DNA of 32,165 bases, from positions 1 to 32,165 of the forward strand of contig JADGOB010000037.1 of the NCBI GenBank assembly GCA_017883185.1, in the 5' to 3' direction. The stretch comes from Acidobacteriota bacterium. GTDB taxonomy: Bacteria; Acidobacteriota; Vicinamibacteria; Vicinamibacterales; Fen-181. This document shows positions 13,637 through 27,616 of the stretch, piece after piece. The position numbers and the translations under genes were made by a program. Position 1 is the first letter of the stretch. Every line of letters begins with the position of its first letter. The notes beneath the pieces are model-generated. The model was not told the origin of the DNA, made no database searches, and saw only the letters and a list, made by a program, of their open reading frames with translations.

Positions 13637-15067
13637 TTAGATAGAAGGGCGCGAGTGGCCCGCGACCATCGGTTCGAACCAGTTGAGCTTCTCGCGAAGG
13701 GCCACCACTTCTCCAACCACAATCAGCGCGGGCGGCTGAAGGTTTGCCGCAGCCACCCGGTCGGCGATGGTCGCCAGCGGAGCGACGATCGTCCGCTGGG
13801 TATCGGTCGTGCCGTTCTCGATAACCGCCACGGGGCAGTCCGGGTCGCGGCCGTTCTCGAGCAACAGGCGTGCGATCGCCCCGAGACGATGGAGGCCCAT
13901 GAAGATCACGAGCGATGCCAACGACCTGGCGTAGTGGGCCCAGTTGACCGGCAACGGATTGGTCACGCACTCGTGCCCCGTGAGGAAGACGAGTTCGGAC
14001 GTGAAATCGCGGTGCGTGAGTGGAATCCCGGCATAGGCGGGTACCGCAATGCCGGCCGAGACGCCGGGAACGACCTCGTAGGCCACGCCCGCCTGGCCGA
14101 GCGCCTCGGCTTCCTCGCCGCCGCGCCCGAAGATGAAGGGATCGCCGCCCTTCAGGCGAACGACAACCCGGCCCGCTCGCGCCTCGTCGATCAGCAGCGC
14201 GTTGATCTCGGCCTGCGGCCGGCTATGGCGCCGGTCGCGCTTGCCCACATACAGGCGCGTGGTCACCGGCCGGCACAGTTCCAGCAAGCGCGGATCCACC
14301 AGCGCGTCGTAGACAACGGTGTCGGCGCACTCGAGCAAGCGACGACCCTTGACGGTCAGCAGCTCAGGGTCACCCGGCCCGGCGCCAACGAGGTAGACCT
14401 TGCCGCTGGTTGCAGCTTCCTTGCAGCAGGTGGCAGTTCTCGAGAAGGGGTTGAAAAAGGGGCCAGGCCCCTTCTCGGTCCTTGCCGACAGGGCGGCCAG
14501 CTCCTGCGCCACCTGTTCGTCGAGGCCGGCGGTGGATCCCGCCCCGGCCTTGCGTTGGTCGCGCAGGGCGCCCAGGCGCTCGACGGCTTCCGCGTATTCA
14601 GGCCCGAATCGTCGCTCGAGGTCCTCGCGGATCTGCCGCGAGAGCCCGGGGCACCGGCCGTTGGTGGAAACGGCAATCGTGAGGCTGCCGCGGCGGATGA
14701 GGGCAGGCGTGATGAAATCGCAGAGGTCCGGTTGGTCGATGGCGTTCAGCCAGATGCCCTCCGCGCGCGCCTCCTCGCAAACAGCGCGGTTCACCACCGC
14801 GTCGGACGTCGCCGCGTAGGCCAACCTGAAGCCGCGAAGATCCCCGGTTCGGTAGGGGCGCCGCTCGAGCACCACCCGATTCGTCTCGGCCCAGCGCGCG
14901 ATCAGGTCAGTGGTCTCCGGGCTCACAACCGAGACGCGCGCGCCTGCCTCGATCAGCGTCTCGATCTTGCGCTCTGCCACCGTGCCACCGCCGATCACGA
15001 TCACGGGATGGCCCGACAGGTCGATGAAGATCGGGTGCAGCCACCCGGGTCGATGCTCTATGGTCAT
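13637..15067 (-). CDS. cysG: Siroheme synthase: precorrin-2 dehydrogenase / uroporphyrinogen-III methyltransferase
   Basis: A 476-residue bifunctional protein. Residues 1 to about 150 form the precorrin-2 dehydrogenase/ferrochelatase half (PVIVIGGGTVAERKIETLIEAGARVSVVSP, NGRCPGLSRQIRE). From about 222 on is the SAM-dependent uroporphyrinogen-III C-methyltransferase (KVYLVGAGPGDPELLTVKG, LKGGDPFIFGRGGEEAEAL, VVPGVSAGIAVPAYAGIPLTHR). Together they make siroheme, the cofactor of DsrAB. The ATG at 15067 is three bases after the dsrN stop, so it is the last gene of the dsr cluster. The linker (about 198-220, TEKGPGPFFNPF... CC) looks like translated repeat DNA (palindrome at 14457-14473). Such fused synthases are known; separate siroheme genes also accompany other dsr clusters. 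Confidence 0.92.
   Translation of the reverse strand: MTIEHRPGWLHPIFIDLSGHPVIVIGGGTVAERKIETLIEAGARVSVVSPETTDLIARWAETNRVVLERRPYRTGDLRGFRLAYAATSDAVVNRAVCEEARAEGIWLNAIDQPDLCDFITPALIRRGSLTIAVSTNGRCPGLSRQIREDLERRFGPEYAEAVERLGALRDQRKAGAGSTAGLDEQVAQELAALSARTEKGPGPFFNPFSRTATCCKEAATSGKVYLVGAGPGDPELLTVKGRRLLECADTVVYDALVDPRLLELCRPVTTRLYVGKRDRRHSRPQAEINALLIDEARAGRVVVRLKGGDPFIFGRGGEEAEALGQAGVAYEVVPGVSAGIAVPAYAGIPLTHRDFTSELVFLTGHECVTNPLPVNWAHYARSLASLVIFMGLHRLGAIARLLLENGRDPDCPVAVIENGTTDTQRTIVAPLATIADRVAAANLQPPALIVVGEVVALREKLNWFEPMVAGHSRPSI
14457..14473. repeat. Palindrome inside the cysG linker
   Basis: AAGGGGCCAGGCCCCTT is a perfect inverted repeat around a central A. It encodes, in frame, the KGPGPF part of the linker between the two CysG domains. 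Nothing in either enzyme domain explains it. Confidence 0.6.
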
Positions 15068-15070
15068 CTT

Positions 15071-16498
15071 TCAGGCCTGGTTCGATGGTCTTCGATGCTG
15101 CTGGTATCGACGTGCGGCCGCGACGAGGCCCTCGGCCCAATCCGGCATGCCGGCGGCGTGCACGTGTGTGTAGCTGGCCCAGACGTTGTTCGCGACGATT
15201 GCGTCGCGCCCGCCGCCGCATCCGGTGCCTCGGCACACCTCGCACGCGGTGTCGGGGACGGGGCCGGTGATGCGCGAGTAGTGGAACTCGTGGCCGCGGA
15301 TCTCGCGGCCGACCGCGAAGAACGGGTTCGGTTGATCGACGCCCAGCACGACGTAGCCATGTCCCTGCGGCACCGCGCACACCTCGACGTCGATCGGTAG
15401 CACGCCGGCCATCGCGTGCCGCCTGCCCTGCCAGGTGACGGCATTCGCCAGCAGCATGAGGCCGCCACATTCCGCGTAGATGGGAAGCCCTTCGGTCGCC
15501 GCGGCACGAAGCGATTCACCCAGCGCACGGTTGCCTTCGAGCGCGGACGCGTGGGTTTCTGGAAAGCCGCCGCCAATGTAGAGCGCGTCGAGACCCGGCG
15601 GCAGCGGGTTGCCGGAGAGCGACGACCACGGCACCAGCGTGGCACCCTGCGCCTCGAGCGCCTCGAGGTTGTCCGGGTAGTAGAAGCTGAACGCCGAGTC
15701 CGAGAGGTAGCCGATGGTCACGGCGCGGCTGGTGAAACCACTCCGGGAGTGGTTTGCCGTTGCGAGGCGGAAATCACTCCCGGAGTGGTTTGCGGCATGG
15801 GAGAGAAGGCCGTCGATGTCCAGGCAGCGCTGCGTGATGTCGCGGAGGGCGTCGGCCAGGCGGTCGATTCCAGCGTGCTCGAGCGGCGTGACGAGGCCCA
15901 GGTGCCGACCGGGCAGCACGTTCTCGTCGAGTCGGGGGATGGCGCCGACGACCGGAACACCGGAGGCACGCTCGATCGCCTCGCGCGCCACCGCTTCGTG
16001 CCGGCGGCCGGCCACCTGATTGAGAACCACGGCGGCAATCCGCACGTCGGGATCGAGCACCTGACACCCGCGCACGAGGGCTGCGGCCGTGCCGGTCATC
16101 TTGCGCGCGTTCAGAACCAGCACAACTGGCGCTCCAAGCAGCTTCGCCAGCGCCGCCGTGCTGTGCGTTCCCTCTGCGTCCATGCCGTCGAACAGGCCCC
16201 GGTTCCCCTCGATCACGTTGAGACCGGCGCCTGTGGCTTCGCCGGCGGTTTGCACCGCGTACCGCGAAAAGGCCTGCGATACCCCGTCGAACCCGGCCAG
16301 GAACGTATCGAGGTTTCTCGCCGGCGCTCCGGAGGCCCAGGCCAGCCACGCCGCATCGATGTAATCCGGCCCCTTCTTGAACGCGCGCACGGCCATGCCT
16401 CGTTCGCGCAAGGCGAGCAGGAGCGCGAGCGACACCAGCGTCTTGCCGGAATCCCCCGACATGCCGGCGATGACGACCCGGGGAACCAACCTCGTCAT
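15071..16498 (-). CDS. dsrN: DsrN, siroheme amidating synthase (cobyrinate a,c-diamide synthase family)
   Basis: A 475-residue CobB/CbiA-type enzyme. In dsr clusters it uses ATP and glutamine to amidate siroheme, giving the siroheme-amide cofactor of DsrAB (family knowledge). The N-terminal ATPase has the P-loop 'AGMSGDSGKTLVSL' (11-24) and 'KKGPDYIDAAWLAWASG'. The C-terminal class-I glutaminase has the nucleophile C344 in 'YAECGGLMLL' and H445 in 'SYTHVHAAG'. Residues 235-257 (AANHSGSDFRLATANHSRSG) between the domains are encoded by two copies of a palindromic repeat. A Cys-rich stretch CEVCRGTGC lies at 419-427. The ATG at 16498 overlaps the dsrP stop by one base (TGATG), and cysG starts three bases downstream. 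Confidence 0.9.
   Translation of the reverse strand: MTRLVPRVVIAGMSGDSGKTLVSLALLLALRERGMAVRAFKKGPDYIDAAWLAWASGAPARNLDTFLAGFDGVSQAFSRYAVQTAGEATGAGLNVIEGNRGLFDGMDAEGTHSTAALAKLLGAPVVLVLNARKMTGTAAALVRGCQVLDPDVRIAAVVLNQVAGRRHEAVAREAIERASGVPVVGAIPRLDENVLPGRHLGLVTPLEHAGIDRLADALRDITQRCLDIDGLLSHAANHSGSDFRLATANHSRSGFTSRAVTIGYLSDSAFSFYYPDNLEALEAQGATLVPWSSLSGNPLPPGLDALYIGGGFPETHASALEGNRALGESLRAAATEGLPIYAECGGLMLLANAVTWQGRRHAMAGVLPIDVEVCAVPQGHGYVVLGVDQPNPFFAVGREIRGHEFHYSRITGPVPDTACEVCRGTGCGGGRDAIVANNVWASYTHVHAAGMPDWAEGLVAAARRYQQHRRPSNQA
15735..15793. repeat. Two palindromic repeat units (36-base period) inside dsrN
   Basis: Unit one (15735-15755) has 10-base arms AAACCACTCC and GGAGTGGTTT around a central G. 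Unit two (15771-15791) has AAATCACTCC and GGAGTGGTTT around a central C. The period of 36 bases equals 12 codons, so the frame is kept. A partial third copy lies at 13572-13585 in the cysG-ada gap. Confidence 0.8.
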
Positions 16499-17652
16499 CA
16501 CCGCTCGCCCGCCCTGACTTCCGCGGTGACCTTGAAGAAACCAGTGACCATGATCGCCCCGAGCGCCCACACCCCGGCGGTGATCATCATCTCGGGCCAC
16601 GTCGGAACGTAGTCGGTCACCGCGCCAAGCGGCGACGGGACGAAGCCGCCCACCACCAACCCCAGACCCTTGTCGATCCAGAGTGACACGAACACGGCAA
16701 CGCAGGCGCCCGCGAGCGTGGGTTCGCTCGTGCGCGTGGAAGGAACGATGAGCAGGACGAGCGCGACAACCGCCAGGCACGCCGACGTCCACATCCACGG
16801 CACCAGCGCGGTGTGGCCGTCGAGCCCTGCGTACAGATAGCGGAAGTGATCCACGTGCTCGGGCACCTGGCTGTAGAAGACGGTGAACACCTCCAGCAGC
16901 ACGAAGAAGACGTGCACCGCCATGGCGTACGCGACGATGAGCGCGATCTTCCGGATAGCCTCGTCGGCGATTCGAAGCGACCACCAGCGTCGCGCGGCCA
17001 GGCACAGCAGGATGAGCAGCGCCGGGCCCGCGGCAAACGCGGACGCGAGAAATCGCGGCGCGAGGATGGCCGTCAACCAGAACGACCGACCCGGGAGACC
17101 GTTGTAGAGAAACGCGGTCACGGTGTGGATGCTGATCGCCCAGGGAATCGATAAGACGATGACCGGCCTGATCCACCGCGGCGGCGCGGTATCGTTGCGC
17201 TCGGCCTCGAGCGAGACGCGCGTGATGACGACGTTCAGGATCAGGTAGCCGCCCAGCGCCACCATGTCCCAGAACATCATCGACCACGGTGTCGGGTAGC
17301 GCAACACGTTCAGCACGCGCGACGGCTGCCCCATGTCCACGAAGATGAACAACCCGCACATCACCACGGAGGTGATCGCCAGGAACTCGCCGAGGATCGT
17401 GACGCGGCCGAACACCTTGTAGTCGTGCAGGTAGTACGGCAGCACCACCATCACCGCCGAGGCGGCCACGCCGACGAAGAACGTGAACTGCGCGATGTAG
17501 AGGCCCCAGGTCACGTCGCGACTCAAGCCGGTCATGCCGAGGCCCGTCTGCAACTGCAGCGCGTAGCACCACGCGCCGGCACACGCGACGGCCGCGAGGC
17601 CCGCGATCCAGGCCCAGTAGCGACGTCCTCCGGCAAGCGCCTTCTCTAACAT
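16498..17652 (-). CDS. dsrP: DsrP, NrfD-like integral membrane quinol-interacting subunit
   Basis: A 384-residue protein with about ten transmembrane helices of the NrfD/PsrC type, for example 'YWAWIAGLAAVACAGAWCYALQLQTGLGMTGLSRDVTWGLYIAQFTFFVGVAASA'. DsrP is the second membrane subunit of the DsrMKJOP complex and exchanges electrons with menaquinone near the periplasmic side, together with DsrO. It ends TAEVRAGER, overlapping the dsrN start by one base. The ATG at 17652 (MLEKALAGGRRYWAW) is chosen because relatives start with a similar MLEKAL segment. In-frame GTGs at 17667 and 17730 exist, but the latter would translate part of the repeat at 17690-17723. It is separated from dsrO by 189 bases, the largest gap inside the dsr run. 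Confidence 0.9.
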   Translation of the reverse strand: MLEKALAGGRRYWAWIAGLAAVACAGAWCYALQLQTGLGMTGLSRDVTWGLYIAQFTFFVGVAASAVMVVLPYYLHDYKVFGRVTILGEFLAITSVVMCGLFIFVDMGQPSRVLNVLRYPTPWSMMFWDMVALGGYLILNVVITRVSLEAERNDTAPPRWIRPVIVLSIPWAISIHTVTAFLYNGLPGRSFWLTAILAPRFLASAFAAGPALLILLCLAARRWWSLRIADEAIRKIALIVAYAMAVHVFFVLLEVFTVFYSQVPEHVDHFRYLYAGLDGHTALVPWMWTSACLAVVALVLLIVPSTRTSEPTLAGACVAVFVSLWIDKGLGLVVGGFVPSPLGAVTDYVPTWPEMMITAGVWALGAIMVTGFFKVTAEVRAGER

Positions 17653-17689
17653 GAGTAACTCGTCCACGCGTTCAGCCTGTGGCGTCGAT

Positions 17690-17841
17690 CCGGCTTGCGA
17701 CTCGCGGCTTGCGACTGGCGGCCTTGCCACGAGAACACCGCAGGACGGGCAGATCCTCTCGTCACCAGGAATTCCACCAACACAACGGTCCTGTGAGCCT
17801 GCTTCCAGCGTGCTGGCCGCAAGCCGCGAGCCGCGAGCCGG
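17690..17841. repeat. Inverted repeat pair filling the dsrO-dsrP gap
   Basis: The left arm 17690-17723 (CCGGCTTGCGACTCGCGGCT...) is nearly the reverse complement of the right arm 17809-17841 (the minus strand starts CCGGCTCGCGGCTCGCGGCT). The arms flank about 85 bases with no open reading frame of note. The right arm starts immediately after the dsrO stop codon. A related copy lies at 13536-13561. The pair resembles a REP/BIME-type or small inverted-repeat element inserted in the operon. Confidence 0.6.
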
Positions 17842-18582
17842 TCAGATTACGTAATACACCTGCGGCCGCGTCCCCAGTTCCGGCTTCCGGCGGATCGAGT
17901 ACCGCGCGGCCAGCGTCTTTCGGATCTCCGAGTCCGGATCGCGAAGGTCGCCGAACAGCATCGCCCCGCCCGGACACGCCCGTACGCACGCGGGCGGTTG
18001 CCCCTTCGCCAGCCGCTCCTCGCACAGGTTGCACTTCTCGACCACGCCCCGCGTCCGTGTCGGATACTCGCTCGTCGTGTGCACCAGAAACGGGCGCGGG
18101 TCCACAAAGTTGAAGCTCCGCGACCCGTAGGGGCACGCAGCCACGCAATACCGGCAGCCGATGCACCGGTGCTCATCGATCGCCACCACCCCGTCGTCCC
18201 GTTTCCAGGTGGCCTGGGTCGGGCAGACCCGGACACAGGGTGGGTTATCGCAGTGGTTGCAGAAGACGAGGACCTCGCGGCCGCGGAGGGCGGCGGTCAC
18301 CGTGTCCGGGTCCTCGATCGCGAACGTCCGCTCGAACGGCTCCTTCCAGATCCACTTCACCTCGTGAGCGCGGTCGGGGATCGCGGGCACGTTGTGGGCC
18401 TGGTGACAGGCGTCGATGCAGGCGCGGCACCCATCCAGTTCCAGGCACTTGCGGACGTCGATGGCCATGGCCCATCGCCTGGTGGCCGCGGCGGGCGAGG
18501 CGCAACCGAGCGCCGCGCCGGTCGCCGCCGCCGCAGCGGCGCTGCCCGCCATCCGGAGGAAGCATCGTCTGGTGGCGCTCAC
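17842..18582 (-). CDS. dsrO: DsrO, Tat-exported periplasmic four-cluster ferredoxin
   Basis: A 246-residue protein beginning VSATRRCFLRMAGSAAAAAA, a twin-arginine signal (TRRCFLR) followed by a hydrophobic stretch and a likely cleavage near residue 33. The mature part carries four cysteine sets fitting four [4Fe-4S] clusters: C46/C52/C55/C59, C108/C111/C116/C120, C140/C143/C146/C150 and C184/C187/C199/C203. DsrO is the periplasmic iron-sulfur partner of DsrP in DsrMKJOP. The GTG start at 18582 overlaps the dsrJ stop by four bases (GTGA), which is why the longer frame from 18981 was rejected. The inverted-repeat element begins right after its TGA stop. Confidence 0.93.
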   Translation of the reverse strand: MSATRRCFLRMAGSAAAAAATGAALGCASPAAATRRWAMAIDVRKCLELDGCRACIDACHQAHNVPAIPDRAHEVKWIWKEPFERTFAIEDPDTVTAALRGREVLVFCNHCDNPPCVRVCPTQATWKRDDGVVAIDEHRCIGCRYCVAACPYGSRSFNFVDPRPFLVHTTSEYPTRTRGVVEKCNLCEERLAKGQPPACVRACPGGAMLFGDLRDPDSEIRKTLAARYSIRRKPELGTRPQVYYVI

Positions 18583-19019
18583 AGAGCGGCTCCCGGCCGC
18601 GAGGACCGGCTTGGCGCCGCCGGCCCGGAGACGATGGCGCCCGTGGCCGTGGGCACGACGTGGCAGCCCCAGCACGTGGGCTTCACGCCCGCGTAGTCGT
18701 GGCACCGGTCGCAAAACTTCGTCTTGTCCGCGTGGCAGGCGCGCAGGCACGTCCCGGACAGGCTCATCGTCACCACCCGGCCGTCGGCGTCCGTGTAGGT
18801 GCGCACGCCGTCGCGCACGACCCGGTCCCGCCACTCGGCGAGGAGCGTCATGTGCGAGGTGCGCATGAACCCGACCGGCGCGACGCAGCGCGTGGCCCCG
18901 ACGGGGCGCGCGAGGCTGGGCGCAGGGGCTGGTGCAGATGCCAATGCGCGCCAGACGGGCCAGGTCAGCGCCGCCAGGCACAGCGCGAGCCCCGCCAGGA
19001 TCAGGATGCGGTTACGCAT
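18579..19019 (-). CDS. dsrJ: DsrJ, periplasmic triheme cytochrome c of DsrMKJOP
   Basis: A 146-residue protein with an N-terminal signal/anchor (RNRILILAGLALCLAALTWPVW). Haem-binding sites two and three are canonical: C103-DR-C106-H107 and C116-WG-C119-H120. The first site reads C91-LRA-C95-H96, that is CX3CH with one extra residue. The region around C45 (TRCVAPVGFMRTSHMTLLAEWRD) matches the conserved family segment whose cysteine ligates one haem. DsrJ is thought to link periplasmic redox chemistry to the membrane complex. It overlaps dsrK by eight bases (ATGCGTAA) and dsrO by four. The C-terminus after the third haem (SGPAAPSRSSRPGAAL) is low-complexity. Confidence 0.9.
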   Translation of the reverse strand: MRNRILILAGLALCLAALTWPVWRALASAPAPAPSLARPVGATRCVAPVGFMRTSHMTLLAEWRDRVVRDGVRTYTDADGRVVTMSLSGTCLRACHADKTKFCDRCHDYAGVKPTCWGCHVVPTATGAIVSGPAAPSRSSRPGAAL

Positions 19020-20628
19020 CGCCGCCTCCCATGCCCTCGAGCGGTTCGCCGCGCAAGTCGGTGGTCCGCGGGTGCTCGCCCTTCATGACCAGCGCATTCC
19101 CGAGCAGCTCGTGAACGCCGGCAACCTCGACGCCGGGCACCCAGTATTCCAGGAGCGGCGGCAGCGTGGCCTTGTCCACGGCGCAGATGCACGCCACGCA
19201 GTTGGTCCCGTGGCGCTTTCGCACGTAGTTCACGGCCATCGCGCGCGGGCGGCCGCCGCGCATGCGCATCTCGAAGTTCTCGTCGGTGCCGAGGCCGGCG
19301 CCGCTGCCGCAACAGAGCGTCCGCTCGCGGATCGTCTCCTCCGGCATCTCGTGAAAGTGATTGAGCACGCGCCGGAGAATGAGCCGCGGCTCCTCGTAGA
19401 GTCCCATCCCGCGGGCCGGGTTGCAGGAGTCGTGGAAGGTGACGTTCCAGTGGTCGTTGCGGGACGGGTCGAGCGCCAGCTTCCCGTGCGCGATCAGGTC
19501 CGCCGTGAACTCGCAGACGTGCAGCATCTTCGTGGAGGACGCGTGGTCGAAGCGCGTTCCGGTCGCCGGCGACACCGGCACCTCCAGGAAATCGGCCGGC
19601 CCGTTCATCGTGCCCATGTATTGATGGACCACGCGCCACATGTGGCCGCACTCGCCGCCGAGGATCCACTTCACCCCCAGCCGCTTCGCCTCGGCGTACA
19701 TCTTCGCGTTGAGGCGCTTGGTCATCTCGTGCGACGCGAAGAGGCCGAAGTTCCCGCCCTCCGACGCGTACGCGCTGAACGTGTAGTCAATGCCCGCCTC
19801 GTGCAGCATCATCAGGTAGCCGAGGAGCGTGAAGTAGTGCGGTAAGCCGAAGTAGTCGGCCGACGGCACGACGAACAGCACCTCTGCGCCCTTGCGGTTG
19901 ATCGGGATCTCGACGCGGATGCCGGTCAGTTCCTCCAGTTCGTCGGCGGCGAAATCGAGGCTGTCCTTGAAGCCGTGCGGCTGGATGCCGAGGTGATTGC
20001 CCACACGGTCGCAGTTGGCGACCGGCTCGATGATCCACTGGATGTTGCAGCCCACCAGGTTCAGCAACTCGCGGCCGATCATCGTGATCTCGGCGGTGTC
20101 GATCCCGAAAGGACAGAACACCGAGCACCGGCGGCATTCCGTGCACTGGTGGAAGTAGTAGAACCACTCCTTCAGCACATCCTCGGTCAGGTCGCGCGCG
20201 CCCGCGAGTGGACCGAAAAGCCGGCCGGCGGCCGTGAAGTAACGGCGATACACCGAGCGGATCAGCTCGGCGCGAAGCACCGGCGTATTCTTCGGGTCGC
20301 CCGAGCCGAGGTAGAAGTGGCACTTGTCGGCGCACGCGCCGCACCGCACGCAGATGTCCATGAACAGCCGGAAGGAGCGGTAGCGCTCGAGCCGGTCCTT
20401 CATGCCATCGAGGATGATCTGCTTCCAGTTCGCGGGCAGCTGCCAGTCGGCGTCCGAGGGCTGCCAGTCGCGCGGGTTCGGCAGACCGAGGTATTCGAGG
20501 TGACGGCGCGCCGCCGCGTGGTTATAAGTGCCCTTGCGGAACTCGACGCGCGGATCCCGCCAGCCGCGTCGCGGAGGGATGTACTCCACGGCCGCCAACT
20601 GCGCGGGATCTGGTTTCTGCTGCGCCAT
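19012..20628 (-). CDS. dsrK: DsrK, HdrD-like catalytic iron-sulfur subunit
   Basis: A 538-residue cytoplasmic subunit. It has two ferredoxin-type sets, C93/C96/C99/C103 (CVRCGACADKC) and C162/C165/C168/C172 (CTECRRCSVFC). C-terminal cysteine-rich segments 'FHDSCNPARGMG', 'LCCGSGAGLGT' and 'NCVACICAVDK' match the CCG-type domain that holds the special [4Fe-4S] site of heterodisulfide reductases. In DsrMKJOP this site reduces the DsrC trisulfide, using electrons taken from quinol by DsrM (family knowledge). The length is close to known DsrK. It begins at ATG 20628 after a 133-base gap that contains a copy of the dsrM end. It overlaps dsrJ by eight bases. Confidence 0.95.
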   Translation of the reverse strand: MAQQKPDPAQLAAVEYIPPRRGWRDPRVEFRKGTYNHAAARRHLEYLGLPNPRDWQPSDADWQLPANWKQIILDGMKDRLERYRSFRLFMDICVRCGACADKCHFYLGSGDPKNTPVLRAELIRSVYRRYFTAAGRLFGPLAGARDLTEDVLKEWFYYFHQCTECRRCSVFCPFGIDTAEITMIGRELLNLVGCNIQWIIEPVANCDRVGNHLGIQPHGFKDSLDFAADELEELTGIRVEIPINRKGAEVLFVVPSADYFGLPHYFTLLGYLMMLHEAGIDYTFSAYASEGGNFGLFASHEMTKRLNAKMYAEAKRLGVKWILGGECGHMWRVVHQYMGTMNGPADFLEVPVSPATGTRFDHASSTKMLHVCEFTADLIAHGKLALDPSRNDHWNVTFHDSCNPARGMGLYEEPRLILRRVLNHFHEMPEETIRERTLCCGSGAGLGTDENFEMRMRGGRPRAMAVNYVRKRHGTNCVACICAVDKATLPPLLEYWVPGVEVAGVHELLGNALVMKGEHPRTTDLRGEPLEGMGGGDA

Positions 20629-20645: not shown

Positions 20646-20832
20646 CTCGCCGCCACACGCCTGAGGGTTGAGCCATTTCTCCTGATTTCAAAACCCAACC
20701 TGCCGCTCTTCGGGTCCTGTCGGCGAGCAGCCCCACCCGTCCTCGGCGCCAAAGGCACTCGTCACGTGAGTGGCGCCTGCGCGGCGGGCGGGGCGCCCCG
20801 CTCGCCGCCACCCGCCTGCGGGTTTTGAAATC
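20646..20832. repeat. Duplicated dsrM-end sequence and inverted repeat in the dsrM-dsrK gap
   Basis: 20646-20669 (CTCGCCGCCACACGCCTGAG then GGTT) and 20801-20824 agree at 22 of 24 bases. The second copy lies inside the dsrM C-terminal coding region. In addition GATTTCAAAACCC (20684-20696) and GGGTTTTGAAATC (20820-20832) are exact reverse complements. No gene was seen in 20629-20761. The pattern suggests a small duplication or repeat-element scar. Confidence 0.6.
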
Positions 20833-21763
20833 TGCCGTCTTCCCGCTCTATCGGCAGTCCCGCCGCCTGGAGTTTCTCGCGGAACTCGTCTTCCCACTCC
20901 TCGTAGGTGTGAAAGGGCGCCGGCGCGTTCCACGGGTTCACGTGACGGCGTCGGCGGCCGTCGTTCGCCTGGTTGCGCGTCGGGCTCAGCCACATCCCCG
21001 CCGCGTGCACCATCTTGGTGAACGGCAGGATGGCGAGCAGCACCGACACGGACAGCAGGTGCAGCACGAAGCCGGCTCCCGGCGACGCCGGCGCGGTTGG
21101 CGCAAGCGCCGCGAGGCCGAGCGTGTACTGTCGAACCGCAATCAGATCGGTCCGAGCCACGTAGCGCAGGACCACTCCGCTGCCGACAACCGCGATCAGC
21201 ACGGCAAGCGCAAGGTAGTCGGCCGGCAGCGTCAGGTACCGCAGCAGCGGGTCACGTACGCGTCGGAACAGGAGGTACCCGAGGGCAACGATGACGATGA
21301 CATCGGTGGCGTACCAGGATGGGGAACCAACCTGGAAGAAGCCGTCCACCGACGCGACGAACGAGGCGACGCGCGGAATCGGCTCGACGAACAGGCCGAG
21401 ATGACGAACGACGATGACGAGGAGCGACCAGTGGAACGCCATGGCGCCCAGCCAGAGCGCCTTCCGCTCGAGGAACACGGGGTCGGGACACGTGCCCGCG
21501 GCGGTCGGTCCGGACGCCACGTTCCGGAAGAGCGAACGGAACAGGAGCCCTTCGAGGAGCATCCGGCCGACGACGCCAGCCGTGGTCGAGGGGCTCTCGA
21601 CGCGGCTCGGCGCGATACCGGCCAGCGATCGCTGCTGACCGGTGGTGGTCGGAATCCTGAACGGCTCAGGTGTTGCCGCCCACGTCCAGACGCGCCATGC
21701 CAGGCCGCCGAGAAACAACACGGCGGCCACGTAGGGCACGGCAATCAGCAGGACGGTCGGCAT
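20762..21763 (-). CDS. dsrM: DsrM, cytochrome b (NarI-like) membrane subunit
   Basis: A 333-residue membrane protein with about six hydrophobic segments. Histidines placed in helices (H111 and H121 in 'AFHWSLLVIVVRHLGLF'; H235 and H253 in 'FVLHLLSVSVLLAILPFTKMVHAAG') are the pattern of the two b-haems of the NarI-like family. DsrM oxidises menaquinol and passes electrons to DsrK. The tail (FQNPQAGGGERGAPPAAQAP) is low-complexity and is partly the duplicated sequence noted at 20801-20824. It starts at ATG 21763, ten bases after the dsrC stop. dsrK follows after 133 bases. Confidence 0.92.
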   Translation of the reverse strand: MPTVLLIAVPYVAAVLFLGGLAWRVWTWAATPEPFRIPTTTGQQRSLAGIAPSRVESPSTTAGVVGRMLLEGLLFRSLFRNVASGPTAAGTCPDPVFLERKALWLGAMAFHWSLLVIVVRHLGLFVEPIPRVASFVASVDGFFQVGSPSWYATDVIVIVALGYLLFRRVRDPLLRYLTLPADYLALAVLIAVVGSGVVLRYVARTDLIAVRQYTLGLAALAPTAPASPGAGFVLHLLSVSVLLAILPFTKMVHAAGMWLSPTRNQANDGRRRRHVNPWNAPAPFHTYEEWEDEFREKLQAAGLPIEREDGRFQNPQAGGGERGAPPAAQAPLT

Positions 21764-21773
21764 CGCCCGCGAC

Positions 21774-22091
21774 CTACACGCAGCCGGTCGGCTTCGGCAG
21801 ACCGGCGACCTTGCATGCGCCTTTCGCCGGCCCGGACGGGAACATCTCGTACACCTGGTTCAGCTTGAACCCGTTCTCCTTGCAGAGCTTCCGGACCATC
21901 GGCGCGATGCCGAACTCGAGGTAGTAGTGGCGCAGGTAGTTCACCAGTTTCCACTGGTCCTCTGTCATGTTTGCAATCCCCTCCGTCGTGGCGAGGTCGG
22001 CCGCCACCTGTTCGTTCCAGAGCATCGGGTCCTCGAGAAAGCCGTCCTCGTCCACCGCGTAGGTATGTCCGTTCAGTTCAATCGTCGGCAC
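21774..22091 (-). CDS. dsrC: DsrC, sulfur-carrier protein of dissimilatory sulfite reductase
   Basis: A 105-residue TusE/DsrC protein. The C-terminal arm ends 'GACKVAGLPKPTGCV' with both redox cysteines, C93 and the penultimate C104. This arrangement identifies true DsrC, not TusE or RspA-type relatives, and lets the arm carry sulfite-derived sulfur as a trisulfide from DsrAB to DsrK. The start is GTG at 22091, supported by GAGGAG five bases upstream; longer starts to 22184 would run back into the dsrD coding region. The GTG gives the usual family N-terminus (PTIELNGHTYAVDEDGFL). It lies 43 bases after the dsrD-like gene and ten bases before dsrM. Confidence 0.96.
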   Translation of the reverse strand: MPTIELNGHTYAVDEDGFLEDPMLWNEQVAADLATTEGIANMTEDQWKLVNYLRHYYLEFGIAPMVRKLCKENGFKLNQVYEMFPSGPAKGACKVAGLPKPTGCV

Positions 22092-22114
22092 TGATTCTCC
22101 TCGAGACTGCGACA

Positions 22115-22138
22115 GGCGTGCCTGAAGGCCCGCCCTAC
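22115..22138. repeat. Small inverted repeat between the dsrD-like gene and dsrC
   Basis: The minus strand reads GTAGGGCGGGCCTTCAGGCA then CGCC, a short palindrome (GGCGGGCCT / AGGCACGCC). The dsrD-like stop codon (TAG, 22137-22135) is formed by its GTAG start. Its core, CGGGCCTTCAGGC, has the look of a REP-like element. Confidence 0.6.
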
Positions 22139-22386
22139 GATGGTTCCTGTTCGGGCCGGGGCAACTCGATGTAGCTGCCGCCAAAGTACGTGTAGATGCA
22201 GCGGCCCGAGTCCACGAGTTGCCGGATCGCTTCCTTGCACGTGCCCTTGCCGCAGCGCTCCGGGCCGAAGCGCTCGATCGTCGCTTTGCTGACGTCGTTC
22301 GGCTTCAGCTTCCGCACGCCTTGCGCGTCGCTGATCATCCGGAACATCGCCTCGGCCACTTCGTCCACGCTTACCGGTTCGGCCAT
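22135..22386 (-). CDS. dsrD: DsrD-like winged-helix protein
   Basis: An 83-residue protein. Helices predicted from 'VDEVAEAMFRMISDAQ' and 'TCKEAIRQLVDSGRC' lead into a beta wing 'IYTYFGGSYIELP'. This agrees with the winged-helix plan of DsrD, whose wing reads similarly near its end. DsrD binds DsrAB and stimulates sulfite reduction, and is used as a marker of the reductive direction (family knowledge). Compared with DsrD of classical sulfate reducers it has an extra loop with cysteines C45 and C50 (ERCGKGTC), so the match is distant. AGGAG lies six bases before the ATG. The position between dsrB and dsrC also fits. An unrelated small winged-helix regulator is possible. Confidence 0.7.
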   Translation of the reverse strand: MAEPVSVDEVAEAMFRMISDAQGVRKLKPNDVSKATIERFGPERCGKGTCKEAIRQLVDSGRCIYTYFGGSYIELPRPEQEPS

Positions 22387-22403: not shown

Positions 22404-22450
22404 GGGCATAGCATGCTGTGCCCCTACCCTGTCGCGACTACGCCCCTACC
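22404..22450. repeat. Palindromic repeat between dsrB and the dsrD-like gene
   Basis: A 20-base near-palindrome GGGCATAGCATGCTGTGCCC (22404-22423) is followed by two direct GCCCCTACC copies (22420-22428 and 22442-22450, read GGTAGGGGC on the minus strand). The second copy contains the dsrB stop codon (TAG at 22448-22446). No gene lies in this 59-base gap. Confidence 0.65.
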
Positions 22451-23525
22451 TTTTCACGTGCACCGATCGCCTGAACGTCGTCTCCGCGTGGCGGAAGTCG
22501 TCGATGTGCTGCTTGGTGAACTCGATGCCGGTCAGCCGGAAGAAGCGGGGCCAGCCGATGCGCTCGATCCACTCGCCCATCCGCTCGTAGGGCCTGGCGT
22601 TCGCCGCCCACACGTCCACCAGCTTCTTCACCGCGTCCACCACCTCCGGCCACCGGGGCGGGTTGTTCGGGAGGAACGGGATCGCGAGCTTCGAGAAGCC
22701 GGGTTCGGAACGCGCGTTGCTCACCTTGCCGCCCACCCAGATGGACACGCCATCGTTCAGCGGATCGTTGAGCGGCATCGCGGGGCAGACCGTGTAGCAG
22801 TTGCCACAGAACATGCAGAGTTCCTCGGCCACCTCCACCGTCTCGTGCCCGTCCTTGCGCACGGGCCTGATCGCTGCCGTCGGGCACGACGCCACCACCG
22901 TCGGCAGCTCGCACATCTTCGGCAGCCGGTCGTGATTGATCTTCGGCGGACGGCGGTGGATGCCGAGGATCGCGATGTCCGAGCAGTGCACGGCGCCGCA
23001 CATGTTGACGCAGCAGGCGAGCGCCACGCGCAGCTTGCCCGGCAGGTCCATCGACGTGAAGTGGCCGATCAGCTCGTCCATCAGCGCCTTCACGATGCCC
23101 GACGCGTCGGTCGCCGCCGAATGGCAGTGAATCCACCCCTGCGTGTGGACGATGTTCGAGAGCGCGTTGCCGGTGCCGCCCACCGGGAATCCCGCGGTCG
23201 CCAGGTCGGCGATGAGCAGATCGATCTTCGCCGGGTCGGTGAGCAGGAACTCGATGTTGTGCCGGCTGGTGAACCGCAGGTAGCCGTCGCAGTACTTGTC
23301 GGCAAGATCGCAAATCTGCCTGATCGTCTGGACGCTCAGCAGCCGGGGCGAACCGGCCCGCACCGTGTAGAGGCGGTCTCCCGTCTCGCCCACGTGGACG
23401 AGAACTCCGGGCCGCGGGATCTCGTGGTACTTCCACTTCCCGTAGTTCGCCTTGATGATCGGCGGCAGGAACTGCTCGTAGTGCGGGGGCCCGATGTCGG
23501 TCTTGCGCTTGGCGATGTCTGGCAT
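22446..23525 (-). CDS. dsrB: DsrB, dissimilatory sulfite reductase beta subunit
   Basis: A 359-residue subunit. Siroheme-[4Fe-4S] ligands are C134 ([10 protein letters not shown]) and C171/C172/C176 ([12 protein letters not shown]). A ferredoxin-type insertion supplies C237/C240/C243 ([19 protein letters not shown]), with C214 in '[13 protein letters not shown]'. With DsrA it forms the A2B2 enzyme that reduces sulfite and transfers sulfur to DsrC. Positively charged residues in '[13 protein letters not shown]' are the type that bind sulfite and siroheme. The ATG at 23525 is 15 bases after dsrA. The length is typical (350-380). The end (HVKR) runs directly into a repeat that supplies the stop. 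Confidence 0.96.
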
Positions 23526-23540
23526 ATCGATTCTCGATCC

Positions 23541-24731
23541 CTACTTTTCCTCTTCGAAGTATTCCTCGTAGAACACGTAGGGGTTTTCGCGAGGGTGCTT
23601 CACCATCTCGGGCATCGGCTCGAGGCCGATCGCCTCGAGGAAGCTCCCCAGGCCGACGCGCTGAATGAACTCGCCGACCCGCTCCCGGTTCTTCCCCTCG
23701 TCCCCCCACAGCTCCAGGATCTTGCCGATCAGCTCCTTCAGCTCAGTGTAGGGAGGCTCGAGCTTCATGAACGGCACGAGCACCGACGAGAGCATGGCGC
23801 CCGACACAATCGGGGCCTTGCCGCCGATCAGGATGCAGGCACCGCGCTCCAGGCCCGGCCGGAGGGCCTTGGGCATCACGTTGATGCAGTGCATGCACCG
23901 CACGCACGCGCTGTTGTCGATGTCGAGAGATGTGCCGTCCCACGCCATGCACTTCGACGGGCAGCGGTCGCACACGGTGGCGCGGACGTCGAGACCGTCA
24001 GCCGCGTACGTGCCCACGGCCTCCTGGTCCACGTCGATCGCGTCCCGCCAGGTCCCGATGATGCTGAGGTCGGCGCGCGCGATGGCGGCCACGCAGTCGT
24101 TCGGGCATCCGGACGCCTTGATCTTGAACTTGTAAGGGAGCGACGGGCGATGAATCTCGTCCTGGTAGTGCTGCGTGAGGTCGTAGGTCAGCGCCAGGGT
24201 GTCGAAGCAGGCCCACTCGCAGCGTGCCGGGCCGACGCAGCAACTGGGCGTGCGCACCACGGACCCCGACCCGCCCAGGTCGAAGCCGTTCTCGGTCAGC
24301 TCGGCAAACACCGGCTCGAGCGATTCGGTCTTCATGCCGAGCAGGATGATGTCGCCGGTGGCGCCGTGCAGGTTCGTCAGGCCGGAGCCGTGCTTCTCCC
24401 AGATGTCGCACACCTTGCGGAGCGCGTCGGTCTTGTAGAACCACCCCGCCGGGTGGTTGACCCGCATCGTGTGGAACTGCGCCACCTCCGGAAACTGCTC
24501 GGGCACGTCCGAGTAACGTCCGATGACGCCCGCGCCATACCCGCGGACGCCGACCACGCCACCGTGCTTCCAGTGGCCGACGCGGTCGCCGTAGGAGAGC
24601 TCGAGAACGCCAAGCAACTGGTCAGCCATGGCGCTGCCTTCGGCGGCACGCTTCATCTCGCGCACGAAGCTTGGCCACGGGCCCTTTTCGAGGTCGTCCA
24701 GCTTGGGAGTCGGTCGTCGTTCGTCGGACAT
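23541..24731 (-). CDS. dsrA: DsrA, dissimilatory sulfite reductase alpha subunit
   Basis: A 396-residue subunit. Siroheme-[4Fe-4S] ligands C165 and C171 lie in '[17 protein letters not shown]', and C209 and C213 in '[12 protein letters not shown]'. A ferredoxin domain follows with C254/C257/C261 and C276/C279/C282 (CDRCPSKC..., [15 protein letters not shown]). The spacings agree with known DsrA. The N-terminus '[20 protein letters not shown]' is also typical. The ATG at 24731 is eight bases after the dsrL stop; an upstream frame to 24782 would overlap dsrL by 43 bases and adds antisense-like residues. Phylogenetic type (reductive or oxidative, bacterial lineage) needs a tree. Cluster content favours the reductive type. 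Confidence 0.96.
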
Positions 24732-24739
24732 AAGACGGC

Positions 24740-25819
24740 TTATCGCATCTCGATGTAATTGCTCGGGCACTGTTCGGCGCACTTGCTGCAGCCCTGGCAG
24801 AACTCGAGCTTGAACCGATACGGCTGCCCCTTCTCGAGCGGCTTGATGACCGCTTGGTCAGGACAGTACTTCCAGCAGTTGTCGCACTCGAAGCAGGCGC
24901 CGCAACTCAGGCAGCGCCTGGCTTCCGCGATCGCGTCCTGTGCCGCCAGCCCCTCGCTCGTCGCCTCGGCGCGCGGCTGGCGGGCATAGTGGTCGAGCAG
25001 GACCTTGTTCTCGAGCACCGGCGGCAGCTTCGGCGCAGCCTCGATGGCGACGCCGCGGATCTCCGCGTCCAGGAGCGCGGCGGCGTGCCTGCCGAAATGA
25101 ATGGCGGCCGCGATCGCGCCGGTCGCTACCGGTGTCCCGTTCTCGTAGATCTTCGTCTTCAGCACGCGCGAATCGGCGGCCAATTCGACGGCCGCAACAT
25201 CCGCAGAGCCGGCAAACGCAACGCCCAGCGCCTCAATCCGCGCAATCTCGGCGTCGAGCACGGCCCGCGGCAGCCGCTCGGCCTCGATGCCGTAGCGCAG
25301 TTCCCCGCCGGCCTGCTCGTGCGGGTCGGCCAGCGTCACCGCGTAGCCGCGCCGGGCCAGCTGATACGCGGCGGACAATCCGGCGGCCCCGGCGCCAATC
25401 ACCGTGACCGACTCGGCTCGAGGCCCGTCCGCCATCGCGCGCAGCGGCCAGCCGGCGTTGATGGCTGCTTCGGCGATGGCGCGCTCGACCTGGTTCACCG
25501 ACACGCCGCCGTCGTACGCCTCGCGCGTGCAGCCGGTCTCGCAGTGGTGCGGGCACAGTCGGCCGCACACCGCCGACAGCGGGTTGCGGTCGGCGATGAG
25601 GTAGAACGCCTCCTCTATCGCCTCGGCCTCGGTCAGTCCGCGTTCGCCCCCACGGGCGAGCGTGGTCAGGAACCCGCGGACGTCGGTGCCGCACGGGCAG
25701 GAGTGCCCGCACGGCGCTTCCTTCGCCACGAACTCCGGGCGCGCCGACGACACGTCGCGGGAAGGACCGCCAAACCCGCCGCGGGCGCCGAGCTTCCGCA
25801 CTTTCTTCACAAGAGCCAT
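24740..25819 (-). CDS. dsrL: DsrL-like iron-sulfur flavoprotein lacking the NAD(P)H domain
   Basis: A 359-residue protein, against about 650 in usual DsrL. The N-terminal cluster domain has C37/C41/C43 and '[14 protein letters not shown]' (C85/C89/C93/C97). The FAD-binding motif '[28 protein letters not shown]' (138-165) is followed by the family segment '[14 protein letters not shown]'. Around residue 200 the sequence jumps to '[28 protein letters not shown]', which is the last FAD segment. The whole NAD(P)H-binding insert with its GGGNxAxD motif is missing. The C-terminal linker and two ferredoxin sets (C303-C319 and C341-C351) are complete. DsrL relatives move electrons between NAD(P)H and DsrAB; this one presumably uses another donor. 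It starts seven bases after the S51 gene. Confidence 0.8.
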
Positions 25820-25826
25820 GGTCCGC

Positions 25827-26708
25827 TCACTTCACCCACTTGCCGTCCTTGACGCGGTCGATCGGCGAACCGCCCCGCGCTCCCGGTCGAACAGCCTGGC
25901 GCGTCTTGATGTTGTATCTGTCGCCCGAGGTCAGGAAATAGAACTTGCCGGCGGGCGGGATCATCCGCTGGTTGTCGAAGATGGCGACGTAGGAGCGGCC
26001 CAGCACCTCGAACTCGTCGCCCTGCACGACGATCGCCGTGTCTTCGTCCAGGCCGATCCCCAGGAGGTCCGGGTGCTTGTCGATGAGCGCGACCAGGTCG
26101 AACTGACGGTTCCGCTTGAGGATGTGCTGGTCGATCGCGACCTTCTTGAGGAACGCCAGCCCTTGCTCGTGGTCGCCCATCATGATGTCGGCCGTCTTCG
26201 TGTCACCGCGCACTAGGTAGTCGCCCTGGATGGTGGCGCCAGCCGACGAGCCGCCGATGACGCCGCCGCGGTCGAGCAGCGCGAACAGCTCCTTCTGCGT
26301 CAGTGTGCCGAGGTACGAGTCCGCGAGTCGCCACTGCCGCCCGCCCTCGAAGAACACCGCGCGCGCCTCGCGCAGCGGCTTGACGAACTCCTCGGTGTCG
26401 GCGACCTTGCGGTCGTAGGTGTGCAGCACGGTCAGCTTCGTCGCGCCCGCGTCCCTGAACATCTTCAGGCCGGCGTACGACTGGTCGTACTTCTCCCCTC
26501 CACCGGCCGTCGGGATCACCACGATCGGCTGATCGACCCCTCCAGCCAGCTCGAAAAACTTCTTCAGGATGGCCGGATCCTTCATGGCGCCGCCGACGAT
26601 GACGAGGGCGCCCTTGGCGGGTCCGAATTCGGCCGCCAGCGCTGAGGAAGCCGCGAGGATCGCCGCGGCCGCGAAGACAATGATCGAGCGAAGGGTTCTG
26701 AGTCTCAT
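25827..26708 (-). CDS. Exported S51 peptidase, cyanophycinase-like
   Basis: A 293-residue protein with a signal peptide (MRLRTLRSIIVFAAAAILAA, cut near SALAA). The S51 fold shows in 'GALVIVGGAMKD' at the start, the nucleophile elbow 'GGSSAGATI' (S155) and 'LLGIGLDEDTAIVVQGDEFEVLG' near the end, as in cyanophycinases and Asp-dipeptidases. Members cleave cyanophycin or aspartyl dipeptides; this exported form may act on periplasmic peptides. The ATG at 26708 overlaps the regulator stop by four bases (ATGA), and dsrL starts seven bases downstream. It is therefore placed at the head of the dsr run, which is unexpected. Its role with sulfite reduction is unknown. Confidence 0.82.
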   Translation of the reverse strand: MRLRTLRSIIVFAAAAILAASSALAAEFGPAKGALVIVGGAMKDPAILKKFFELAGGVDQPIVVIPTAGGGEKYDQSYAGLKMFRDAGATKLTVLHTYDRKVADTEEFVKPLREARAVFFEGGRQWRLADSYLGTLTQKELFALLDRGGVIGGSSAGATIQGDYLVRGDTKTADIMMGDHEQGLAFLKKVAIDQHILKRNRQFDLVALIDKHPDLLGIGLDEDTAIVVQGDEFEVLGRSYVAIFDNQRMIPPAGKFYFLTSGDRYNIKTRQAVRPGARGGSPIDRVKDGKWVK

Positions 26709-27616
26709 CGGTGTTCTCGCCTCGTTGATTCTGCAGGAGATGCGTCCTCGATTGCCCGCGCCAACAGCGAGGACGCCGGTGAGGTCGCGCGGGAGCACAC
26801 CCACACCAGCGTCGCCCCGTCGGTCGCCGAGGGGTTCAGCCACCGGTGCCCGCGCGTGCTCTCGAACCAGAAGCTGTCGCCCTCGCGCAGCGTCACGTGT
26901 TCGAGCTCGTCCAACCAGATCTCGATCGAACCCGACAGCACGTAGATCAACTCCTCGCCGTCGTGGACGTAAGACCCGGCGCTGCCGGACCGTGGGGCGG
27001 CCCGAAAGAGCATCGACTCGAGGCGGCTCGACGAGGGCGCGAGCAGCTCCATGTTCACGCCCGGGTGCGCCTGCAGGACGGTGCGGTCGGACGGCCGCAG
27101 CCGGCGGCTCGATTTGCCGGGCAGATCGAACAGCTCCAGCACCGACGTGCGGTACGCCGTCGTCAACCGCTGCATCGTGGCCACCGAGGCCGTCGCCTGC
27201 GACCGTTCCACGGCGCTGAGGAACCCGGTCGAGATGCCGGCCTCGCGCGCGACGTCGGCGATGCGGAGTCCGCGGCGCTGCCGCACCTCCCGCAGCTTCC
27301 GGCCAAGCGTCGCCAGCGCGTACCGCTCGGGGTCCCGCGCGTCGCGGAGGCCGAGCGCTTCCTTGATCGCGGGCACGTTCAGCTGCCGCACGTCGCGCAG
27401 GTACTTGATGCGCTCGAGGACGGCGAGTGCGCTGGGGGTGTAAAGGCGGTAGCCTCCCGGGTTGCGCACCGTCTGCACGAGACCCGCGTGCTCCCACAGC
27501 CGAAGCGTGGAGGCGCTGACACCGACGATTCGGGCCGCCTGCCCCACGGTCAGCGTCGGACGCCGGGTGGCATCCCCGGGGGGCGTCCGGGTCGTCGAGC
27601 GCTCCGATCGGGTCAT
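26705..27616 (-). CDS. MerR-XRE-cupin triple-domain transcriptional regulator
   Basis: A 303-residue regulator with three parts. Residues 22-90 form a MerR helix-turn-helix (LTVGQAARIVGVSASTLRLWEHAGLV, then NPGGYRLYTPSAL). About 105-165 is an XRE/Cro-type helix-turn-helix (LREVRQRRGLRIADVAREAGISTGFLSAVERSQ). About 185-275 is a cupin sensor domain (HDGEELIYVLSGSIEIWLDELEHVTLREGDSFWF... GHRWLNPS). Cupins of XRE-cupin regulators bind small ligands such as amino acids or polyamines. It overlaps the S51 gene by four bases. A 27-base inverted repeat is placed right upstream (27624-27650) across its likely promoter, so autoregulation and control of the divergent ftcD are plausible. The ligand is unknown. 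Confidence 0.85.
   Translation of the reverse strand: MTRSERSTTRTPPGDATRRPTLTVGQAARIVGVSASTLRLWEHAGLVQTVRNPGGYRLYTPSALAVLERIKYLRDVRQLNVPAIKEALGLRDARDPERYALATLGRKLREVRQRRGLRIADVAREAGISTGFLSAVERSQATASVATMQRLTTAYRTSVLELFDLPGKSSRRLRPSDRTVLQAHPGVNMELLAPSSSRLESMLFRAAPRSGSAGSYVHDGEELIYVLSGSIEIWLDELEHVTLREGDSFWFESTRGHRWLNPSATDGATLVWVCSRATSPASSLLARAIEDASPAESTRREHR

Follow-up and report, generated by a model that had tools for sequence, protein, structure and literature searches.

A DsrL variant without the NAD(P)H-binding domain in dsr clusters of Acidobacteriota

Which donor passes electrons directly to DsrAB in sulfate and sulfite reducers is a long-standing question. In classical sulfate reducers DsrAB operates without DsrL, via a still unknown oxidoreductase (PMC10591310), and where DsrL is present, the role of its low-potential Fe-S clusters has been called enigmatic, because the DsrL of Allochromatium vinosum works from NADH without them (PMC7596348). 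The dsrL gene in the window (the whole stretch of 32,165 nucleotides analysed here) raises the question from the opposite side, since its product has lost the NAD(P)H site and kept the clusters. Such domain-less DsrLs represent a reverse natural experiment: if DsrAB is supported by them, the clusters form an independent route, and otherwise a non-redox role is left. Whether the gene is real, how often the form arose and what could still supply it with electrons are considered in turn.

The dsrL gene, its cluster and the missing domain

The dsrL frame runs on the minus strand from the ATG at 25819-25817 to the stop at 24742-24740 and encodes 359 residues without an internal stop, confirming the continuous reading frame described in the initial annotation, while the plus strand over 24740-25819 gives a nonsense translation. 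The gene stands first in a cluster of the order dsrL-dsrA-dsrB-(DsrD-like)-dsrC-dsrM-dsrK-dsrJ-dsrO-dsrP-dsrN-cysG:

24740..25819, minus strand: dsrL, domain-less form, 359 aa (coding 24743-25819, stop 24740-24742; open frame, Pfam/NCBIfam, orthologues in G003 and G004)
23541..24731, minus strand: dsrA, ATG 8 nt past the dsrL stop (TIGR02064, 571.7 bits, over cut-off)
22446..23525, minus strand: dsrB (TIGR02066, 532.2 bits, over cut-off)
22135..22386, minus strand: 83-aa winged-helix-like protein in the DsrD position (position, conservation in relatives; weak wHTH Pfam hit)
21774..22184, minus strand: dsrC with both C-terminal cysteines (PF04358, TIGR03342)
20762..21763, minus strand: dsrM (NF038037, over cut-off)
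19012..20628, minus strand: dsrK (NF045796, over cut-off)
18579..19019, minus strand: probable dsrJ with CxxCH haem motifs (translation; no Pfam match)
17842..18600, minus strand: dsrO-like ferredoxin, start uncertain within ORF 17842-18981 (Fer4_11, synteny)
16498..17730, minus strand: dsrP, inferred from position (synteny, tblastn conservation)
15071..16500, minus strand: dsrN, CobB/CobQ-type amidotransferase, start uncertain within ORF 15071-17584 (PF07685, PF01656)
13637..15067, minus strand: cysG-like sirohaem synthesis protein (PF00590, PF13241, PF14824)

The Pfam DsrD model gave no match to the 83-aa protein even at E 10, and this model may miss the DsrD of Acidobacteriota. Upstream of dsrL, a cyanophycinase-like gene only a few bases away and a MerR/cupin regulator occupy 25827-27616; this pair is shared by the window and G004 and was not seen in G003. 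In the dsr cluster of G004, a different ORF (L036:9767-10300), and no dsrC, lies between the DsrD-like gene and dsrM, with dsrC located on a separate contig (G004:C37:84916-85215).

Pfam analysis of the window DsrL detected Fer4_20 at residues 33-122, a C-terminal 4Fe-4S dicluster and, from Pyr_redox_2, only the first 57 of 291 positions. As a control, the full-length relative L043 from G008 covered 291/291 Pyr_redox_2 positions and showed a separate Pyr_redox NAD(P)H match at 266-314. Neither GGGDTAxD nor YRR is present in the window protein according to the motif table, and the absence of the GGGNxAxD NAD(P)H fold, suspected from the start, was thus corroborated by Pfam, alignments and the motif table together with the full-length control. 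The full-length DsrLs of G001, G008 and G022 comprise 553 aa, and alignment with these relatives places the loss at ~194 residues, ~180 of them central and the remainder in the linker, so that the 250-300 missing residues first estimated were an overstatement. The remaining parts are arranged as follows:

25454..25762, minus strand: N-terminal two-[4Fe-4S] ferredoxin-like domain, residues 20-122 (Fer4_20, ligand table, scheme of PMC7596348)
25157..25411, minus strand: remaining FAD-type Rossmann half, residues 137-221 (Pfam NAD_binding_8/DAO, model)
25139..25156, minus strand: deletion point, residues 222-227 (alignments, motif table, full-length control)
25055..25138, minus strand: closing FAD-segment helix, residues 228-255, GGD turn lost (alignment, model, motif table)
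24743..24916, minus strand: C-terminal 4Fe-4S dicluster, residues 302-359 (Pfam Fer4_21/Fer4_9, invariant cysteines)

The N-terminal domain is of the NfnB/GltD/DPD type (Pfam/NCBIfam), and its ligands S24, R27, C37, C41, C89, C93, C97 and E112 follow the published DsrL scheme of Ser/Arg, five cysteines and a glutamate, in which Ser and Arg replace two NfnB cysteines (PMC7596348); the Ser position is Thr in G004. The FAD half carries GAGAAG, the acidic D165 and GG171-172, followed by a short beta-alpha-beta unit (201-221). At the deletion point, full-length DsrLs have an NAD(P)H domain with GGGDTAxD and YRR as well as the GGD turn of the FAD site. The initial description of a direct passage from the first FAD segment to the closing one therefore holds for the loss of the NAD(P)H domain, but the beta-alpha-beta unit between the two segments stays in the model. 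The dicluster cysteines are C309, C312, C315, C319, C341, C344, C347 and C351, accompanied by C303 and C306. Apart from the Ser/Thr exchange in G004, the N-terminal ligands and the eight dicluster cysteines are invariant across all complete sequences examined, and the claim that all Fe-S cysteines remain was borne out by the ligand table for both termini.

AlphaFold2 predicted a compact Rossmann core for the window DsrL (pLDDT 75, pTM 0.76; pLDDT mostly 84-96 over residues 131-210 and about 75 over 211-220) as well as for a domain-less form from family f26 (pLDDT 81, pTM 0.82), the C-terminal ferredoxin domain being the lower-confidence region of the models. The best PDB matches by both sequence and fold were NfnABC, StnABC, Nfn, GltD and DPD.

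The protein was also compared with the published DsrL criteria (Loeffler et al. 2020, PMC7596348). The gene is complete and lies in a dsrAB-carrying genome, with dsrA and dsrB directly downstream and both over the curated cut-off; the N-terminal ferredoxin-like domain is represented by the Fer4_20 match and all ligands; and the neighbours are dsr genes, with no linkage to genes for pyruvate/ketoisovalerate ferredoxin oxidoreductase. At the C-terminus the dicluster cysteines are invariant, and the linker length departs from the published one in the window protein (~45 residues) and in full-length G008 (~55) alike. From the Rossmann FAD domain with its embedded NAD(P) Rossmann domain, only the first FAD part is left. 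As to the DsrL-2 type, the YRR associated with NADP(H) is absent, and the Arg at the position of NfnB Cys42 (the conserved R27) and a reductive-type dsrA are present. The DsrL identity given in the initial annotation is supported by the cluster, the tree and the type-2 ligand signature, and by descent the protein is a DsrL of the type-2 branch. Since one defining domain is missing, the published criteria would leave it out, and it is best named a domain-less DsrL variant rather than an NAD(P)H:acceptor oxidoreductase; the motif loss predicts no NADP(H):acceptor oxidoreductase activity.

Recurrence, selection and origin

The window originates from a metagenome-type assembly of 395 contigs, which brings an assembly or binning artefact to mind. 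The search of related genomes that had been proposed as a check recovered the same short form in two further members of the genus, G003 (also available under PMKG01000230.1, Acidobacteria bacterium fen_299) and G004, with 73% and 64% identity, respectively, no internal stops, dsrL likewise first in the cluster and the gene order as in the window. Seven more genomes carry analogous domain-less forms, and all ten genes lie away from contig ends. These independent genomes rule out an assembly deletion and leave an artefact of any kind with next to no probability.

The extent of the domain loss was explored in several sets of genomes. Among 193 genomes of the window's class, the short form occurred only in the window's genus, together with a 427-aa domain-less form in G006, from another genus of the same family, which is also encoded inside a dsr cluster. 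A third group came to light among 396 genomes from the phylum and 399 from another class, in five f26 genomes and one f97 genome, whose DsrLs of 397-402 aa are likewise situated in dsr clusters and belong to a different Acidobacteriota class; the 38 genomes searched from the class of G376 yielded no further domain-less DsrL. The short form seen on this contig thus recurs in relatives, as had been asked, but its recurrence in another Acidobacteriota class had been missed.

Altogether, 10 domain-less and 27 full-length proteins were present among the 37 DsrLs examined. GGG(D/N) occurs in 27/27 full-length forms and YRR in 26/27, and neither GGGDTAxD nor YRR in any of the domain-less ones. At the FAD site, GxGxxG, the acidic residue following beta-2 and the GG pair persist in all ten domain-less DsrLs. 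The flavin-pocket motif YGIP, present in every full-length row, is altered in each of the ten, and only G006 still has an intact closing GGD turn. The Fe-S ligands are invariant in 10/10, across three lineages. Separately, the full-length DsrL at L116:7555-9234 (G197) features GGGNTAID without YRR, perhaps reflecting a different nucleotide preference or an early step in the loss, and G297 and G417 (L157, L162; L156, L163) carry two DsrL genes per genome, all full-length.

The dN/dS of the short dsrL is 0.27-0.36, compared with 0.14-0.16 for full-length dsrL and about 0.08-0.11 for dsrA; its amino-acid evolution is ~2 times as fast as that of full-length dsrL and 3-4 times that of dsrA. Between the window's genome (G000) and G003, pN/pS is low in the FAD half (about 0.25) and the C-terminal ferredoxin domain (0.28) and reaches about 1 in the linker, and the corresponding values between G000 and G004 are 0.25, 0.22 and 0.69. 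For the f26 domain-less dsrL, dN/dS is 0.17-0.24. Judged from these low dN/dS and segment pN/pS values, the short dsrL is a real gene under purifying selection, though faster-evolving than its full-length relatives. A relic on its way out, kept by operon linkage, would agree with the dN/dS above that of full-length DsrL, a linker at or near neutrality and the altered flavin pocket. This reading is rather improbable, as dN/dS stays well below 1 in two lineages (0.17-0.36), frames and cysteines are intact in ten genomes, and one 100/100 clade comprises six widely divergent members. By the sequence evidence, the window protein is a genuine, selected, domain-deleted DsrL from the reductive type-2 lineage.

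In the DsrL tree, built from shared columns, the three proteins of the window's genus form one 100/100 clade, the six f26/f97 proteins form another with full-length G632 and G614 nearest to it, and G006 stands alone; a minimum of three label changes is required on this tree. A single clade of all ten domain-less DsrLs is not rejected by the AU test on DsrL alone (p = 0.106). The DsrAB trees likewise separate the window clade from G006. One of them needs five changes, at least three of which are forced by well-supported branches; it holds the badly extracted row G417 with a very long branch and is thus given less weight, for nearby well-supported groupings only, while the other DsrAB tree separating the window clade from G006 is free of this row. 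The deletion ends also differ among the three domain-less groups. Owing to the tree topology and these differing ends, a single origin of all domain-less forms is unlikely, and it is concluded that the NAD(P)H domain was lost independently at least twice, probably three times.

Two genomes of one genus, G652 (L135) and G584 (L138), have sister dsrAB but differ in their form of DsrL; an exchange of dsrL between lineages is suggested by the grouping of the G652 protein, which is domain-less, with family f26. L039/L040 of G001, a genome assigned to the window's genus, encode a full-length DsrL and dsrAB grouping with other families, indicating two dsr clusters of different origin within this genus.

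Electron supply to DsrAB

The initial annotation suggested that a partner could provide the NAD(P)H domain in trans, and a related option is pairing of the short DsrL with a full-length homologue. Dimerization has precedents, with a homodimer known for the A. vinosum DsrL and a DsrL1-DsrL2 heterodimer proposed elsewhere (PMC7596348), and the window's genome does encode other NAD(P)H-domain oxidoreductases. But no full-length DsrL was found elsewhere in this genome, and the dsr clusters yielded no stand-alone gene for an NAD(P)H domain. The NAD(P)H-domain matches in the short-form genomes are either embedded in larger ORFs of ordinary oxidoreductases or weak and located elsewhere, none of them in a dsr cluster. 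Those of the window's genome, named from their translations, are fused hydrogenase/formate-dehydrogenase-like, NADH-dehydrogenase-like, YgfK-like and GltD-like, with one more weak match, and resemble components of other enzymes. The suggestion is accordingly not supported, and supply in trans or pairing is improbable.

Sulfite reduction is indicated by the reductive type of the partners, by the DsrD-like gene and by the Arg signature. Neither sat nor aprA was found in G000, G003 (77% complete), G004 or G006, which is consistent with the use of sulfite rather than sulfate; both genes are present in the full-length carriers G008 and G022. A tie between domain loss and loss of sulfate activation was considered and rejected as a general rule, as G001 and G024 lack sat/aprA yet have a full-length DsrL, and the domain-less G199 and G500 carry aprA.

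What is kept in the short DsrL comprises the ligands for four [4Fe-4S] sites, the FAD GxGxxG half and the DsrAB-linked gene neighbourhood. Under the preferred reading, which has about an even chance of being right, the protein would be an Fe-S adaptor independent of NAD(P)H. It would still dock on DsrAB, and NADPH would no longer be its electron source. A low-potential one-electron carrier, most simply ferredoxin, would reduce one of the ferredoxin-like domains, electrons would move along the Fe-S clusters with or without the remaining flavin, and the other ferredoxin-like domain would pass them to DsrAB for sulfite reduction. The clusters of A. vinosum DsrL have potentials of -330 and -390 mV (PMC7596348), which are judged to be within the reach of ferredoxin.

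The strongest argument against this adaptor is that NADH-driven electron transfer to sulfite by A. vinosum DsrL did not need its Fe-S clusters (PMC7596348), which makes a purely Fe-S route hypothetical for every DsrL. For the same reason the main rival is a structural or regulatory subunit, in which the short DsrL docks on DsrAB and stabilizes or modulates it without carrying electrons, the clusters being structural. DsrD-type allosteric activators of DsrAB are known (PMC10591310), and the faster evolution of the short dsrL compared with full-length DsrL could reflect a relaxed role. Nevertheless, the invariance of the Fe-S ligands in all ten proteins goes beyond the needs of a scaffold, and this role is considered unlikely. 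It is also conceivable that FAD is still bound and that its flavin receives electrons not from NAD(P)H but from a protein donor, flavodoxin-like or other. The retained FAD-site residues and the FAD half, which is among the most conserved parts, would suit such a donor, but the altered YGIP and the GGD turn surviving only in G006 imply that flavin binding may be weak, making this route very improbable.

Returning to the Fe-S adaptor, its evolutionary extension can be put forward only tentatively: that on at least two and probably three occasions in Acidobacteriota, DsrL ceased to be an NADPH oxidoreductase and became a nucleotide-free Fe-S adaptor linking DsrAB to a low-potential one-electron donor. 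If true, this would add a third mode of feeding DsrAB, beside supply through an NAD(P)H-linked DsrL and the operation without DsrL seen in classical sulfate reducers. The loss of the NADPH-binding part with retention of the Fe-S wiring suggests that several Acidobacteriota feed sulfite reduction from an electron source other than NADPH, and NADPH-driven sulfite reduction should not be read off a 'dsrL' gene in a genome without a domain check.

Relation to known DsrL types and related enzymes

Hausmann et al. described acidobacterial DsrLs as shorter than that of A. vinosum, and conserved YRR motifs are reported for marine Acidobacteriota (PMC8528874). No truncated or domain-less DsrL was found described in the open-licence literature, in line with the initial annotation, which counts no such form among the described DsrL-1 and DsrL-2 types.

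The closest known systems are DsrL-2/DsrL-2C, namely Desulfurella amilsii DsrL-2 and the DsrL of Acidobacteriota, which are of the reductive type and NADP(H)-linked. The operon context, the reductive-type dsrAB, the DsrD-like gene, Ser/Arg in place of two NfnB cysteines and the C-terminal dicluster are shared, and the domain-less forms are nested among full-length type-2 proteins in the trees. They differ in lacking GGGDTAxD, YRR and the NAD(P)H domain, in being about 150-200 residues shorter and in the altered flavin-pocket motif; in the window's genus, moreover, dsrL precedes dsrA. With DsrL-1A of A. vinosum, the Fe-S domain plan and the link to DsrAB are held in common. DsrL-1A, however, is linked to NADH, partners an oxidative rDsrAB and has a longer substrate domain and a longer linker (PMC7596348); the window protein possesses no such domain. 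The large subunits NfnB/NfnABC/StnABC and GltD share the N-terminal ferredoxin-like domain and the first FAD half, but they have kept the NAD(P)H domain and a complete FAD domain and act in electron bifurcation or in glutamate synthase.
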